A stretch of DNA of 43,439 nt, taken from positions 1 to 43,439 of the forward strand of contig PWTC01000087.1 in the NCBI GenBank assembly GCA_003563005.1, in the 5' to 3' direction. The notes under the pieces are model-generated. The model was not told where the DNA came from and made no database searches. It saw only the letters and a list, made by a program, of their open reading frames with translations. Positions 27,904 through 34,881 of this stretch are shown here, in pieces; position 1 is the stretch's first letter, and every line of letters starts with the position of its first letter. The position numbers and the translations under genes were made by a program. Source of the DNA: Candidatus Acetothermia bacterium (lineage in GTDB: Bacteria; Bipolaricaulota; Bipolaricaulia; Bipolaricaulales; Bipolaricaulaceae).

Positions 27904-30661
27904 CCCAGAGGCTGGCAGCCGGCAGGACGAAGATGCTCCCGAGCAGAGTGAATCCTAGGCCAACCAGGGCGGATATTCCCAGGAGCCGCAAGCCCGGGGT
28001 CTGGGCGGCCAGCAGGGCGCCGAACACCATCATGGTGGCCACAGCAGTGACTGCAGTGGGGACCGCCGAGGCCGCCGCGCCGCGCGCGACGCTCCCGGGT
28101 CCGCCGGATCGCTCTTCCTCGATGCGGTGGAGGATGTGGATTGCGCTGTCCACACCGAGTCCGATCAGAAGAGGTGAAACGACGATGTTGGTGAAGTTGA
28201 ACGCGATACCGAGCGTGTACATCCCGGCGAGCATCCACACGTAGCCGATGACGAGCGGCATGAGCGCCAGCGCGGCTTCCCGAAGGTTGCGGAAGCTGCG
28301 CCACACGGCGAGAGCGATGAACAACGCGGCGAGCGCAGTGGAGAGAGCGAAATCACGCTTCATGTGGCCCTCGAGGTGAACCGTGATCTCCTGAAGGCCG
28401 AAGTAATCGACATTGAGGGTACGGGTCCAACGGATGAACTCCTCGATGGCCGCGGTACCCGAGAGCCCTGTGTGCATCAGCACACGCATTACGTACCGAC
28501 CCTTAGGTGTGTAGTACTGGCTCCGAAGCTCTGCCGGCAGCACATCGACCAGCTGGCGGATCATCTCGGACTCGGGTGGCAGGGCATCTAGCCCGTCGAG
28601 GAACACGCCCACCTCGGCCAGGTCTTTCTCCAGGGCTTCCATGATGGGGAGCAGCGCGTCGGGCTCGAGGGCGGTCAGGGCATCGCTCAACTGCAGCAGC
28701 CCGGAAGTGCTTCCGGACACCGCCTCGGCCGCGTCGCCCCAACCTCCCAGCACGGCGCGCAGTTCCAGTTGGGAGAGCTGCCGCACGACTGTGTCCAGCT
28801 GAGCAAGGATGTCGTCCAGCTGTGCCAGATCTGTCTGCAACGCGGCCATCGCTCCTGTGACGTCACGAATGGGCAGGTCGGCGAGCGACGCGCGTCCTCG
28901 GAGAAGCTCCTGGGGCAACAGGTTGCGGATGGAGCGGACGGCGCGTACCTCCTCGCGCTCTGCCATCAGGCCCTCGAGGTTCTGGAGTTGATCCGGCGAA
29001 TCGGCGAACAGGACGAAGTACTCGCCGAATTGAAGCTCGAGCTCGAATTCCTCCACGATCTCCTCGGCTGCGGCGCGTGCCCGCGTCGGCGGCGCCAGTT
29101 CTGCCGAGGTGAAGCGGAACTGAACCTGCGTGGCCTGGTAGAGGAGGGCCAGGGTCAGCATGAGGAAGAGACTTACCAGGACACGACGCTGCACGAGCAG
29201 ATGTGTGTACATGGTGTGGAGTCCCCTCTGTCCCCGAGGCACGGACTCCCTGAACCGTTTCTTGAACGTCACATAGGCGAGCGTGATCATCGATGGGGTG
29301 AGCAGCACCGCTGTCAGATAGGTGAGTGCTGTGCCCACCACCATGATGATGCCCATCTCGGCCAGCGCAGTGGAACGCGACACGAGCAGGGACAGGAACA
29401 CGATGCCGGTGGTCAGAGCAGCGGTGAGCGAGGCGTCGCCCTTGGAGTAGATCGCCTTAGCGCAGGCCGCGCCGACCGAACGCCCCCCCGCGCGCTCCTC
29501 TGCGTAGCGCGCCAGCAAGTGCACGGTGAAGTCGATGCCGTAGCCCAGGACGAGCGCAGGGAGGAAAGCGGTCACCAGGTTGAAGCCTCCGACTGCGAGC
29601 TTGGCCCATGCCATGGTGAACAGCGCAGAAACCAGCATGGGAACGAGTGCTACCAGCGTGAGGAACAGGCTTCCGAACATGAGGAGGAGCAGTACCAGCA
29701 CAGCTGCCGAGGCGATCATCGTGGTCACCAGCATGTCGTTTCGGATGACCTGGTCCATTTCGGCTACCGTGGCGTAGGAGCCGGCGACCGCTCCCTTCAC
29801 CCCCCACCGGCCGAGGTCCGCCGCACCCGCTGCCTCGGCGACCAGGCGGCTGATCTCGCGGTTGTAGGCCAAGCTCTCGTGTGCGCCCCGGCGGGGCCAG
29901 ACTTGGACGATGAGGCGGCTGTAGTCGCGTGCGAAGAGAGGCTCGCCGTCGTCCTCGGGGGGGGGGCGCTCGCGGACGGCGCGGATGAGCTGTGCCGCTT
30001 CGCTGAGCAGGGGCTGCACATCGGGAAGCACCCCCAGAGCATCCACCGACCTCCTTCCCGCGCTCACCAGTTCGTCGACGTGGCCGGAAAGCGACAGGAT
30101 CTCCTCCCGTGTGGGCCAGGTTCCGAGGTTCGGACCGACCAGTCCCGCCTCAAGGCCGACCAACCTGCGATCGGGCATCACGGGGAGTTTCTCGATCACC
30201 TCTTCTGCGATCTCCCTTAGGCGTGCCAGCGATTCGGCGTCCAAGATGCGGAATAGCATGAGCTCATCGGGCAGCGAGATTCCTTCGCCCAATCGGTAGG
30301 AGGCCCCGCGAATCTCCTCGTGCTCGAGCTCTTCGATCAGGGCGTCTCCCGCGTCAAACAGCAGCGCGCGGCGCTCCTCCAGCGAAGCAGACGGCGCGTC
30401 CAGCGTCAACACCACGGCCATGTAGTCCACGCCCTCGAGCTCCGCCTGAAGCGCTTCGTAGGTCTCGATCAAGGGATCGTTCTTCGGGAGGAGATCGAGG
30501 TAGTCCGTACGGATGGGCAGGTCCCGGATGTAGAACAAGCTGGCACCCGCAAGCAGGGCCACCACGAGCGCTACCGCCAGCGCCTGGCGACGGGAGAGGT
30601 AGATGATCCCGTCCAGGAACCGATGGCGGGGGGGGCGGCGCTCAGTTGGTCTGGACTTCAT
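27878..30661 (-). CDS. RND-superfamily (MMPL-type) transporter
   Basis: This 927-residue protein has the duplicated RND layout. A first membrane helix (about 28-48) precedes a large extracytoplasmic loop and a block of five helices (about 300-470). A second set follows, with a single helix near residue 500, a loop, and a helix block to the C-terminus. RTDYLDLLPKNDPL after helix 1 and GYGIDFTVHLLARYAEE / GLGVDSAIHILHRIEEE, with the proton-relay Asp, are typical of MMPL/hopanoid-exporter-like proteins. It may move lipids or hydrophobic molecules. It starts with ATG at 30661, overlapping the nusA end by 20 nt, so it belongs to the rimP-nusA operon. Confidence 0.93.
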   Translation of the reverse strand: MKSRPTERRPPRHRFLDGIIYLSRRQALAVALVVALLAGASLFYIRDLPIRTDYLDLLPKNDPLIETYEALQAELEGVDYMAVVLTLDAPSASLEERRALLFDAGDALIEELEHEEIRGASYRLGEGISLPDELMLFRILDAESLARLREIAEEVIEKLPVMPDRRLVGLEAGLVGPNLGTWPTREEILSLSGHVDELVSAGRRSVDALGVLPDVQPLLSEAAQLIRAVRERPPPEDDGEPLFARDYSRLIVQVWPRRGAHESLAYNREISRLVAEAAGAADLGRWGVKGAVAGSYATVAEMDQVIRNDMLVTTMIASAAVLVLLLLMFGSLFLTLVALVPMLVSALFTMAWAKLAVGGFNLVTAFLPALVLGYGIDFTVHLLARYAEERAGGRSVGAACAKAIYSKGDASLTAALTTGIVFLSLLVSRSTALAEMGIIMVVGTALTYLTAVLLTPSMITLAYVTFKKRFRESVPRGQRGLHTMYTHLLVQRRVLVSLFLMLTLALLYQATQVQFRFTSAELAPPTRARAAAEEIVEEFELELQFGEYFVLFADSPDQLQNLEGLMAEREEVRAVRSIRNLLPQELLRGRASLADLPIRDVTGAMAALQTDLAQLDDILAQLDTVVRQLSQLELRAVLGGWGDAAEAVSGSTSGLLQLSDALTALEPDALLPIMEALEKDLAEVGVFLDGLDALPPESEMIRQLVDVLPAELRSQYYTPKGRYVMRVLMHTGLSGTAAIEEFIRWTRTLNVDYFGLQEITVHLEGHMKRDFALSTALAALFIALAVWRSFRNLREAALALMPLVIGYVWMLAGMYTLGIAFNFTNIVVSPLLIGLGVDSAIHILHRIEEERSGGPGSVARGAAASAVPTAVTAVATMMVFGALLAAQTPGLRLLGISALVGLGFTLLGSIFVLPAASLWVERRRRGD

Positions 30662-31583
30662 CGCCGGACGGCGTCCGGATCTGCACTCTGTAACCGCTGA
30701 GCTTCGCCGCGAGCTCCGCGCTCTGGCCGTCGCGGCCTATGGCGAGCGAGATCTCGCTCACCGGGACCACCACAACAGCCGTCCTCTCTTCCTTGTCTAG
30801 CTCGATGGAGCGCACGCTGGCGGGGGCGAGGCAGCCGCGGATCACATCGCGGATATCCTCACTCCAACGGATGATATCGACCTTCTCGCCGGAGAGCTCT
30901 CGGCTCACCGCACGGATGCGACTGCCTCCCGCGCCCACACATGTGCCCACCGGATCGATGCGGGGATCCAGCGCGCGTACGAGAACCTTGCTGCGCACAC
31001 CTGGGATGCGGGCCACGTCAACAACCTCGAGCAGCCCCTGCTCGATCTCGGGGACCTCCAAGCCCAGCAGCCGTGCGATGAACTGCGGATGGGCACGGGA
31101 CACGTAGATGCGGGGGTCTCCTTGTGTCTTCTCCACATCGTAGAGGTAGGCGCGGAGCCTTCTTCCCGGCACGTACCGTTCGCCAGGAATGCGCTCCGAT
31201 TCGGGCATATAGGCCTCGGCTTCGCCGAGGTTGATCCACACGCTGCGACCTTCAAACCTGTGGACAGAACCGTTCAGCAACTCCCCGATCCGCGCGGCGT
31301 ACATGTCGTAGAGGGCTTCGCGGCGATAGCGAAGGATCTCCTGCCGGAAGACCTCCTCGGCCCTGCGGGTCGCGATCCGCCCGAGCGATGCCCAGGAGAG
31401 CCTCTTGCCGTCGACGATCACGTCGCCGCTGGCGCGGTTGATGGAGACCTCCTCAGGCGTTGTCCCGTACTCAAGCAGATATGCCGCCGCGATGCCCTTC
31501 TCCATGGCCACATAGGCTGCCTCACGGTCGATGCCCCGCTCACGGGCCATCTCCTCCAGTGCCTCTAGGAAGTCGATATTCAC
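30642..31583 (-). CDS. nusA: Transcription elongation/termination factor NusA (short form)
   Basis: This 313-residue protein has an N-terminal RNA polymerase-binding domain (about 1-100), an S1 domain (about 107-170, GSVHRFEGRSVWINLGEAEAY), then KH1 and KH2. The hallmark DPRIDPVGTCVGAGGSRIRAV...GEKVDIIRWSED is clear, and KH2 includes SLAIGRDGQSAELAAKL. The protein stops right after KH2, so it lacks the acidic C-terminal repeats of E. coli NusA. The GTG at 31583 was chosen because AAGGAG lies 5 nt before it and it overlaps the rimP stop (GTGA). infB does not follow; an RND transporter does. Confidence 0.95.
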   Translation of the reverse strand: MNIDFLEALEEMARERGIDREAAYVAMEKGIAAAYLLEYGTTPEEVSINRASGDVIVDGKRLSWASLGRIATRRAEEVFRQEILRYRREALYDMYAARIGELLNGSVHRFEGRSVWINLGEAEAYMPESERIPGERYVPGRRLRAYLYDVEKTQGDPRIYVSRAHPQFIARLLGLEVPEIEQGLLEVVDVARIPGVRSKVLVRALDPRIDPVGTCVGAGGSRIRAVSRELSGEKVDIIRWSEDIRDVIRGCLAPASVRSIELDKEERTAVVVVPVSEISLAIGRDGQSAELAAKLSGYRVQIRTPSGDEVQTN

Positions 31584-32050
31584 GTTCGCTCCTTGTCCGG
31601 CTCGAAGACCACCTGCGCCCGTACCACATCGCTGAGCTTGACCGCGATGCGCTCGTGTTGCGTATCGAGCAGGACATCCTCCCCGTCCATCCCGACGAGA
31701 CGTCCTTCGATGCTCGTGCCCCTGTCGCCCTGGGGACGCAGCCGCAACCGGACCTTCCGGCCGGCCGCGCGTTCGTAGTGCCAGGGCTCCCACAGGCGCC
31801 GCTCGATGCCAGGCGAGGACACCTCCAGGACGTAGGCCGTCGTCATCACGTCCTCGCGATCCAGCGCGCCGCCCATCGCACGGCTGGCGCGCTCGCAGTC
31901 CGCCAAGCTGACCCCGTCGGGGCGGTCGATCTGCACGAGCAACCTCGCCCTGCCTCCCTCGCCGGTCAGGTGCCAGTGATACAATTCTACACCTGCTTCG
32001 CGTGCCCCGGCACGCAGCAGCGTGTCGATCTTTTCACGAAACAGCCGCAT
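31580..32050 (-). CDS. rimP: Ribosome maturation factor RimP
   Basis: This 156-residue protein helps mature the 30S subunit. It shows the two-domain RimP pattern: an N-terminal alpha/beta domain with VQIDRPDGVSLADCERASRAMGGALDRED, then YVLEVSSPGIERRL, and a small SH3-like C-terminal domain. The ATG at 32050 has no ribosome site and lies 8 nt after a TATAAT box, so its mRNA is probably leaderless. It heads the rimP-nusA-RND operon and is divergent from the rluD-like gene, with only 26 nt between the two start codons. Confidence 0.95.
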   Translation of the reverse strand: MRLFREKIDTLLRAGAREAGVELYHWHLTGEGGRARLLVQIDRPDGVSLADCERASRAMGGALDREDVMTTAYVLEVSSPGIERRLWEPWHYERAAGRKVRLRLRPQGDRGTSIEGRLVGMDGEDVLLDTQHERIAVKLSDVVRAQVVFEPDKERT

Positions 32051-32058
32051 GTTCTGGC

Positions 32059-32066
32059 ATTATACT
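32059..32066. promoter_or_regulatory. Shared divergent -10 element of rimP and rluD
   Basis: The 8-bp segment ATTATACT gives TATAAT on the minus strand (32064-32059), 8 nt before the rimP ATG, and TATACT on the plus strand (32061-32066), 10 nt before the rluD ATG. The four central bases TATA are used by both. Candidate -35 boxes: TTGTGT (32088-32083, 18-nt spacer) for rimP and GAAACA (32038-32043, 17 nt) for rluD. Neither gene has a Shine-Dalgarno site, so both mRNAs should be leaderless or nearly so. Confidence 0.65.
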
Positions 32067-32076
32067 AGAGGCGCCC

Positions 32077-32988
32077 ATGCCTACACAACGACGATTGCGT
32101 GTGGATCGCATACAGGTGAGCGCGGCGGACAGCGGCGTCCGGCTCGACCGGCTTCTCGCCGGCCAGCTGTCCATCTCCCGTGCGCACGCCCGCCAGCTTG
32201 TGGATGAAGGCGCGGTGGTGTTGTCCGAGCGAAGCCCCCGGGCGGACACACGCCTTCGAGAAGGAGATGAGGTGGTGGTGACGTGGGATGGCGGGGAGCT
32301 TCAGGCGACGCCGCATGCGCTGCCTATTCTGCACCATGACGAGGAGCTGGTGGTCGTGGACAAGCCTTCGGGGATGCCTGTGCATCCGACTTCCCGACAT
32401 GCTCGACGGCTCACGGTGGTCACGGCGCTCCTGGGGACCGTGCCGCTGGCCGGCGGCCCGCCCGAGCGCCCAGGGGTCGTCCATCGCCTGGACGCGGCGA
32501 CGAGCGGCGTGCTCGTGCTCGCGTGCACGGTGCGTGCGCATGGCGAGCTCTCCCGGCAGTTCCGAGCGCGCGAGGTCGAGAAGGTGTATTTGGCAGTGGT
32601 GTCCGGTTGCGTGGAGGTCTCGGAAGGCTCGATCAGCGGTCGCATGGCCCGCGATCCGAAGCGTCCCTGGCGGATGGAGGTGTCCCCTGCGGGACGTGAG
32701 GCGTACACGGAGTTCTTCGTCAGGTCGCGCTCGGAGGACACCACGCTTCTCGAAGTGCGGCCCTCCACCGGACGTACCCACCAGATCCGTGTGCATCTGG
32801 CGGCGATTGGGCATCCCATCATGGGAGATGTGCTGTACGGAACCGAGGCGGAGCGGCTGATGCTCCACGCGTGGCGCCTGGGATTTCGTCACCCGGCCAG
32901 CGGCGAGCCGATGTCCTTCTGCGCCCCTCCGCCCCCTGGGTTCGGCGCGGACGGCCGGCACTTCCCTAGGGAAGGTTCGCGATCCTGA
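32077..32988 (+). CDS. rluD: RluD/RluA-family 23S rRNA pseudouridine synthase
   Basis: This 303-residue protein has an N-terminal S4 RNA-binding domain (VRLDRLLAGQLSISRAHARQLVDEGAVV, about residues 16-43) and a pseudouridine synthase domain. The catalytic Asp is in GVVHRLDAATSGVLVLA. STGRTHQIRVHLAAIGHPIMGD is the usual second motif. Members modify uridines in 23S rRNA, as RluD does at 1911/1915/1917; exact targets are inferred. The ATG at 32077 follows a -10 box by 10 nt with no ribosome site. The 3' end overlaps the convergent CDP-alcohol transferase gene by 23 nt. Confidence 0.9.
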   Translation: MPTQRRLRVDRIQVSAADSGVRLDRLLAGQLSISRAHARQLVDEGAVVLSERSPRADTRLREGDEVVVTWDGGELQATPHALPILHHDEELVVVDKPSGMPVHPTSRHARRLTVVTALLGTVPLAGGPPERPGVVHRLDAATSGVLVLACTVRAHGELSRQFRAREVEKVYLAVVSGCVEVSEGSISGRMARDPKRPWRMEVSPAGREAYTEFFVRSRSEDTTLLEVRPSTGRTHQIRVHLAAIGHPIMGDVLYGTEAERLMLHAWRLGFRHPASGEPMSFCAPPPPGFGADGRHFPREGSRS

Positions 32989-33501: not shown

Positions 33502-33530
33502 TCGCAAGCGCGCGCCTATCTGGGTATACT
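33502..33530 (+). promoter_or_regulatory. Promoter of the cDPG-synthetase-like gene
   Basis: TCGCAA (33502-33507), 17 nt, TATACT (33525-33530). The ATG lies 40 nt downstream behind a GAGGTGAT site, so this mRNA has a normal leader. The -35 is weak, the -10 strong. Confidence 0.5.
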
Positions 33531-33570: not shown

Positions 33571-34881
33571 ATGCTTAAGAAACGCGTCATCGTGATGGGA
33601 GCCGCTGGACGCGATTTTCACAACTACAATGTTGTATTCCGTGATGATCCGGCTTACCACGTTGTCGCCTTCACCGCGACGCAAATCCCGGGCATCGAAG
33701 GACGCGTCTACCCGCCGGAACTGGCAGGCTCGCTATACCCTGAGGGGATTCCCATCCACCCGGAGGAGGAGCTGTTTGACCTGATACGTGAACACCAAGT
33801 GGACGTTGTGGTGTTCGCCTACTCCGATGTCCCGCACGCTTATGTCATGGATCGGGCAGCGGTCGCGGCGTCGGCGGGAGCTGACTTCTGGCTCATGGGG
33901 CCGTCGGCGACGCAGATCGAGGCGCGTGTACCGGTCGTTGCTGTGTGCGCGGTGCGCACCGGTGCAGGGAAGTCCCAGACCACACGCAAGGTGGTCGAGT
34001 TGCTAAGGGCGGCCGGCAAGCGCACGGTGGTCGTGCGACACCCCATGCCTTACGGCGACCTGGCGGCGCAGGCCGTCCAGCGCTTTGCCACGTACGAGGA
34101 TCTGGATGCGGCCCATTGCACGATCGAGGAGCGTGAAGAGTACGAACCGCACTTGGACCGTGGGACTGTGGTGTATGCGGGGGTGGACTACGGGGCGATT
34201 CTGGAGCGCGCCCAGAGCGAGGCGGACGTGATCCTCTGGGACGGCGGCAACAACGACTTCCCCTTCTACAGGCCCGATCTTCTGATGGTGCTGGCGGACC
34301 CACTTCGCGCCGGACACGAGCTGTGCTACTGGCCCGGCTCGGTGAACACCCGGGCGGCGCACGTGATCATCATCAACAAGGTGGACTCCGCATCCGCCGA
34401 GCAGGTGACGCAGCTTCGGTCGACGATCGCCAAGGTGAACCCCGAAGCCCTGGTCATCGAGGCGGCCTCTCCCATCACCGTCGACGATCCCTCGCTGATC
34501 CCCGGCAGACGGGTGCTCGTGGTGGAGGATGGTCCTACGGTCACGCACGGCGACATGGCGTTCGGCGCCGGGGCGGTGGCGGCGCGCAAGCTGGGGGGGG
34601 AACTCGTGGATCCTCGCCCCTACGCGACGGGTTCGATCGCCGATGTGTTCGCCCGCTATCCCCATCTCGGTGCGATCCTTCCAGCCATGGGCTACGGCAG
34701 CTTACAGTTGGAGGAGCTGCAGCGGACGATCGACAAGGTGCCCTGTGAGGCGATCGTGGCCGGGACGCCCATCGATCTGAGGCGGCTGGTGAAGGCCTCC
34801 GTGCCGATGACGCGCGTCCGCTATGATCTCCAGGAGATCGGATCTCCGACCCTCGAGGATGCGCTGAAGCACCTTCTCTGA
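33571..34881 (+). CDS. Cyclic 2,3-diphosphoglycerate synthetase-like GTPase (COG2403 type)
   Basis: This 436-residue protein resembles the family that includes archaeal cyclic 2,3-diphosphoglycerate synthetase. It has an N-terminal Rossmann-like domain (VIVMGAAGRDFHNYN...), a P-loop VRTGAGKSQTTRKV (about residues 128-141), WDGGNNDFPFY (about 221-231) and the nucleotide-binding IINKVDSA. In methanogens the enzyme makes a thermoprotective solute; bacterial members are not well studied and may do something else, so I give no gene symbol. GAGGTGAT precedes the ATG. It stands alone, with a GC-rich stem-loop 35 nt after the stop. Confidence 0.82.
   Translation: MLKKRVIVMGAAGRDFHNYNVVFRDDPAYHVVAFTATQIPGIEGRVYPPELAGSLYPEGIPIHPEEELFDLIREHQVDVVVFAYSDVPHAYVMDRAAVAASAGADFWLMGPSATQIEARVPVVAVCAVRTGAGKSQTTRKVVELLRAAGKRTVVVRHPMPYGDLAAQAVQRFATYEDLDAAHCTIEEREEYEPHLDRGTVVYAGVDYGAILERAQSEADVILWDGGNNDFPFYRPDLLMVLADPLRAGHELCYWPGSVNTRAAHVIIINKVDSASAEQVTQLRSTIAKVNPEALVIEAASPITVDDPSLIPGRRVLVVEDGPTVTHGDMAFGAGAVAARKLGGELVDPRPYATGSIADVFARYPHLGAILPAMGYGSLQLEELQRTIDKVPCEAIVAGTPIDLRRLVKASVPMTRVRYDLQEIGSPTLEDALKHLL

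Follow-up and report, generated by a model that had tools for sequence, protein, structure and literature searches.

The window analyzed here, 43,439 nucleotides long, makes up all of contig G000:C104, which belongs to a 1.4-Mb genome of Candidatus Bipolaricaulota assembled from a metagenome; judged by NusA, its nearest named relatives are metagenome-assembled genomes of Candidatus Bipolaricaulota / Acetothermia. The window carries on its minus strand the gene for the ribosome maturation factor RimP (31580 to 32050; Pfam RimP_N, 1.3e-19, and DUF150_C, 2.1e-10), with an ATG at 32050 to 32048 and a stop codon that overlaps the GTG start (31583 to 31581) of nusA, the next gene of the rimP operon (30642 to 31583, minus strand; NCBIfam TIGR01953, 6.8e-86). 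On the plus strand, an ATG at 32077 to 32079 opens a rluD-like gene for a 23S rRNA pseudouridine synthase of the RluA family with an S4 domain (32077 to 32988), which scores above the cut-off of TIGR00005 (6.1e-71) and, in a profile search with PRK11180 RluD, under that model's cut-off (1.9e-43). The start codons are separated by a spacer of 26 nt, GTTCTGGCATTATACTAGAGGCGCCC (32051 to 32076), and share a common core, ATTATACT (32059 to 32066), that reads TATAAT on the minus strand toward rimP (32064 to 32059) and TATACT on the plus strand toward rluD (32061 to 32066). A previous reading made from the letters alone (the sequence-only reading) had described this symmetrical core and the spacer, and both were confirmed on inspection of the sequence.

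The core is an instance of the palindrome ANTATANT, a register in which each strand carries a TANNNT hexamer and the hexamers are offset by 2 bp. In the 43-kb window, ATTATACT occurs once against an expectation of 0.04, and ANTATANT once against 0.33. The 1.6 Mb scanned of a relative, G004, held only 13 ANTATANT sites, among which the rimP/rluD locus alone lies 6 to 12 nt from two divergent open reading frame (ORF) starts. That a core in this register (21 bp, after the predicted distance between transcription starts) is frequent within a single genome was rejected for G004, with its 1 site; other genomes of the family have 1 to 2 more. A stock sigma-70 promoter scan did not report the site, because the -35 regions match TTGACA weakly and the scan's -35 consensus is too strict. 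As evidence against a chance arrangement, we consider conservation across relatives to be the strongest.

RimP was mapped in 40 genomes of the class and later in 100, which provided 54 rimP starts for comparison. ATTATA, the complement of the rimP-facing hexamer, stands upstream of rimP at 53 of these starts, in four families (f1, f3, f5, and f6). The divergent rimP/rluD arrangement is present in 34 genomes from 11 genera of the window's family, and all eight bases of ATTATACT are identical in 34/34; the -10 positions T-12, A-11, and T-7 are thus found on both strands, in overlapping register, in every one of them. By comparison, none of the 17 flanking spacer columns is invariant when one representative is taken for each of the 11 genera, and pairwise identity in the core-anchored alignment is 48% to the left of the core, 37% to the right, and 100% inside. 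The RimP proteins of the 34 core-bearing genomes are mostly 42 to 57% identical to that of the window. Because the loci were aligned by anchoring on ATTATA, only the last two bases of the core (columns 7 and 8, C and T) are tested fully independently by this alignment, and they are kept in 34/34; for the remaining bases, it is the presence of ATTATA at 53/54 loci that speaks in favor of conservation. The sequence-only reading had tied its fate to conservation of the spacer core where gene order is kept, and it survived this check. In the class-wide search, RimP_N was found in most f1, f3, f5, and f6 genomes, and families f2, f4, f7, f8, and f9, the last two with one genome each, gave no match at all; RimP may have been lost, or may be unrecognizable, in the latter families.

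The core could instead be a -10 element of rimP only, with rluD served by a separate promoter (inside rimP, for example) and provided with an ordinary leader. On the rimP side, a perfect TATAAT and a conserved -35, and on the rluD side, the lack of a clear -35, would fit such an arrangement, but the terminal CT, which is relevant only to a rluD -10 and creates no extended -10 (TGn) for rimP, is kept in 34/34 genomes in which rluD is adjacent. Lineages from which rluD has moved away also bear on this point. Genera g2 and g9 have no rluD next to rimP on its upstream side, and their core reads ATTATACC: the rimP TATAAT is intact, and the rluD-facing -7T is replaced by C. In G001 and G008, rluD lies on a separate contig; the G001 contig with rimP breaks off 155 nt upstream of that gene, and in G008 an ogt-like gene (identified by eye from its translation) occupies the place of rluD. 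In G001, TATACT has stayed with the relocated rluD, 7 nt ahead of the ATG. A second g2 genome, G013, gave no rluD when searched, and its copy of the ATTATACC core is 177 nt away from rimP, beyond inserted sequence. The g2 and g9 genera are not sisters in the RimP tree, and it is therefore likely that the base was lost in two events. The raw Fisher p value for this association, uncorrected for kinship, is 0.0016, or 0.00013 if the displaced G013 copy is included. Family f5 has ATTATATC or ATTATACC as its core, and the in-frame rluD start, where seen, is 39 to 49 nt off. Taken together, the g2/g9, f5, and G001 data support assigning the CT of the core to transcription of rluD, and we consider a rimP-only -10 element quite unlikely. 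The claim that one -10 region is common to rimP and rluD is strongly supported, both by conservation and by the loss of the rluD-facing -7T alone after rluD departed. The extra sequence in G013 (L005, 1960 to 2150) amounts to about 170 nt between the rimP start and the ATTATACC core, has TTGAAC repeats at its borders, and may stem from a small insertion or from faulty assembly.

A candidate -35 element for rimP, TTGTGT, is located at 32083 to 32088 on the minus strand, 18 bp from the -10 hexamer and within rluD codons 3 and 4 (ACA CAA). The sequence-only reading overlooked this element, with which the arrangement is, as judged from sequence, asymmetric. A TTG is found 16 to 18 bp from TATAAT, the spacing of a sigma-70 -35, at 48 of 53 loci; it falls within rluD codons 3 and 4 in the window's family. 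On the rluD side, no clear -35 was recognized at 16 to 18 bp, the best match usually being 3 of 6 bases. A -35 element is not obligatory for every sigma-70 promoter. Given the perfect -10 and the TTGnnn -35 on the rimP side and no clear counterpart for rluD, rimP-nusA is probably the stronger direction. The conserved CACAA of rluD codons 3 and 4 might, however, be kept for rluD itself, either for the protein, in which M-x-T-K/T is largely maintained, or for translation, CA-rich downstream sequences being a known aid to leaderless translation. This reading has more difficulty with families f3, f5, and f6, in which the rluD start is farther off and the TTG (the reverse of CAA), mostly outside the rluD codons, still stands at the rimP -35 position, 16 to 17 bp away, in 17/17 loci. 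Both f1 loci from which rluD was lost lack the TTG, but so do three g12 genomes that retain rluD. On balance, we think it somewhat unlikely that CACAA serves rluD rather than the rimP -35.

Both RNAs had been claimed to be leaderless, a prediction that fits rimP well and rluD approximately. The gap between -10 and start codon on the rimP side is 8 nt in the window, within the 6 to 9 nt at which TANNNT precedes leaderless genes, and 7 to 9 nt in 32 of 36 family loci; the exceptions are 12 to 13 nt in three g13/g7 genomes and 3 nt, via a TTG start, in one. From the position of the -10, we infer a rimP transcription start at 32050 to 32052 (minus strand) with a leader of 0 to 2 nt, and the view that rimP is leaderless or nearly so is well supported by these distances. 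On the rluD side, the gap is 10 nt in the window, 8 nt in g5, 8 or 11 nt in g3, and 10 to 12 nt elsewhere, so that most genera, at 10 to 12 nt, fall in the tail of the leaderless peak. The predicted rluD start lies at 32072 to 32077 (plus strand; leader of 0 to 5 nt), and counted canonically, as the seventh base after TATACT, it would fall at 32073. For the window, this makes a leader of about 4 nt likelier than exactly zero, and about 1 to 6 nt would be expected across genera. In g5, with its gap of 8 nt, both mRNAs could be exactly or almost leaderless. Ahead of rluD, the window shows a GAGG resembling a Shine-Dalgarno sequence (32068 to 32071), located upstream of where transcription is predicted to start; as a Shine-Dalgarno sequence, AGAGG was rejected because it is not conserved. 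Two genomes have no standard rluD start at the aligned ATG (ATA in L017 of G012 and ACG in L153 of G049), which may reflect a non-standard start, a shifted start, or a sequencing error.

Starts adjacent to a -10 appear to be a habit of the group, as in G004 (1.6 of 1.7 Mb) TANNNT before operon-first genes peaks at gaps of 6 to 9 nt, with 31, 26, 23, and 22 occurrences, compared with about 5 per position as background. A smaller, separate group is present at 18 to 21 nt. This profile was obtained with a home-made gene finder whose gene starts are approximate and which lost rluD in G004; the genome to which the window belongs shows the signal as well. Elsewhere in the window, TATACT at 33525 to 33530 and GAGGTGAT directly before an ATG at 33571 provide a contrasting case and suggest an ordinary leadered gene with a Shine-Dalgarno sequence.

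The rimP/rluD locus is not the only place at which such a core separates divergent genes. In ORF-flank scans with controls, the pattern CAT-gap-ANTATANT-gap-ATG gave 31 matches in 40 family genomes versus 2 for the reversed control, and these included rimP/rluD, flavodoxin/TIGR00375-family, and flavodoxin/CoA-transferase III pairs. ATTATACT stands between flavodoxin and TIGR00375-family genes in g2, g3, and g6 (loci among L177, L178, L179, and L184), and in the g6 pair each start codon stands exactly 6 nt from its own -10; at L176 (g8), only the TIGR00375-like side was confirmed. The window's genome contains a second ATTATACT core (G000:C25:494-524, L175) between genes for a flavodoxin (gap 8) and a family III CoA-transferase (gap 9), and genes for LigT-like phosphoesterases also adjoin the core under a looser pattern. 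That cores of this kind precede such unrelated genes argues against ATTATACT being the operator of a transcription factor, a role that its near-palindromic form and strict conservation might otherwise suggest. At only 8 bp, it has no symmetric arms beyond the core, where the flanks vary, and its distance from a start codon is always that of a -10, with a -35 standing 16 to 18 bp away; we regard an operator as highly improbable. In the 18-bp register (TANNNTA), TATCATA is found in G004 (C1:1054629-1054656, L144) between genes for a PLD-domain protein and a LonB-like protease, 8 and 9 nt from the two starts, and a similar match is present in 12/12 listed g5 genomes, the orthology of the other 11 being judged from the match sequence alone. 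Overall, the 18- and 23-bp patterns exceed their controls only modestly (194/156 and 255/116), and most such matches are therefore attributable to chance.

We consider it very likely, on the comparative evidence, that ATTATACT is a single, deeply conserved sigma-70-type bidirectional promoter core driving two leaderless or nearly leaderless mRNAs. RNA polymerase would load in either orientation on overlapping -10 hexamers with a common central TATA, TATAAT serving rimP-nusA and TATACT serving rluD. Toward rimP, it would find a perfect -10 with a TTGnnn -35 at 16 to 18 bp, within the first rluD codons in the window's family; toward rluD, it would find a -10 with one mismatch and no clear -35. 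Transcripts would begin a few nucleotides past each -10, so that the mRNAs would be leaderless or carry a few untranslated nucleotides and would both be translated without a Shine-Dalgarno sequence. The predicted separation of about 21 bp between the two starts counts against this model, as it differs from the E. coli optima of 18 (or 10 and 23) bp (PMC12825309); the distance from -10 to start is flexible.

Bidirectional promoters with symmetric -10 elements have been recognized only recently, mostly through start-site maps of E. coli and Salmonella, and the divergent RNA is often a non-coding antisense transcript; bacterial examples were reportedly described by Warman et al. in 2021. The class is defined by starts 7 to 25 bp apart, of which 18 bp is the commonest distance and 10 and 23 bp are also common (PMC12825309, PMC10268837). 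The proposed rimP/rluD promoter resembles these in that one -10 region would be read on both strands, with the two orientations of polymerase exclusive, and in that its distance of about 21 bp, predicted from the -10 positions, would fall in this range. It differs in that the hexamers overlap as ANTATANT, rather than as TANNNTA (18 bp) or, by geometry, ANNNTANNNT (23 bp), in that both products are housekeeping mRNAs with almost no leader, and in that the core is fixed across many genera. Leaderless genes are known in bacteria (PMC3160421), and Deinococcus-Thermus has leaderless genes adjacent to a -10, with TANNNT directly before the start codon and no room for a Shine-Dalgarno sequence, as at rimP/rluD (PMC12340547). 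In those genes the motif lies 6 to 7 bp from one ORF, whereas here one motif would serve two, at 7 to 9 and 8 to 12 nt; divergent or bidirectional use is not mentioned in that paper (PMC12340547). Our literature search on shared leaderless bidirectional promoters and on leaderless genes of Bipolaricaulota returned nothing directly on point, and the combination of leaderless and bidirectional, in a 21-bp register and conserved to such depth, was absent from the papers searched. The transposon tetR/tetA genes likewise have overlapping divergent promoters and a leaderless mRNA; in contrast to what is proposed for rimP/rluD, they are controlled by a repressor and are leaderless on one side only.

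The sequence-only reading also held that expression of the two genes would be mutually competitive, a see-saw of RimP/NusA against RluD that would add to the bidirectional promoter rather than replace it. Exclusion is sterically plausible, as overlapping -10 elements could not be occupied in both orientations simultaneously, and when one side of such a promoter is strongly activated in E. coli, the other is repressed (PMC12825309). At basal activity, however, 5/5 tested E. coli promoters showed no effect, being too weak to compete (PMC12825309), and no regulator site was identified at the rimP/rluD locus; competition is a possibility to which we give rather less than even weight, and hold to be doubtful.

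At this locus, both RNAs would be housekeeping mRNAs behind a core that has stayed fixed across a deep span of the phylogeny, and the natural loss of one gene reveals which base serves which direction. Comparative genomics and simple assays of transcription in vitro can now address whether such promoters are selected for and whether they couple expression, and the findings suggest leaderless gene expression in the phylum. A broader proposition, the chances of which we put at about even, is that in Bipolaricaulota selection maintains the palindromic -10 (ANTATANT) as a heritable type of promoter from which two leaderless mRNAs run outward from one melted region, held at rimP/rluD for the depth of the class with one gene's -35 in the other's codons, and tying ribosome maturation by RimP/NusA to 23S rRNA modification by RluD.

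Other sequences came to light incidentally in the relatives. A long, nearly perfect palindrome, CATGGTGTGTACTAGTATACTAGTACACACTATG, is present at G006:C265:6797-6830, and repeats resembling CRISPR repeats, CATTTTGGTCTGATTTTAAT and AAAATCAGACTATTTTAGGATTGAAATG, were seen in G048:C89 (6385, 8057, and 8395) and G020:C9 (2524 and 6788).
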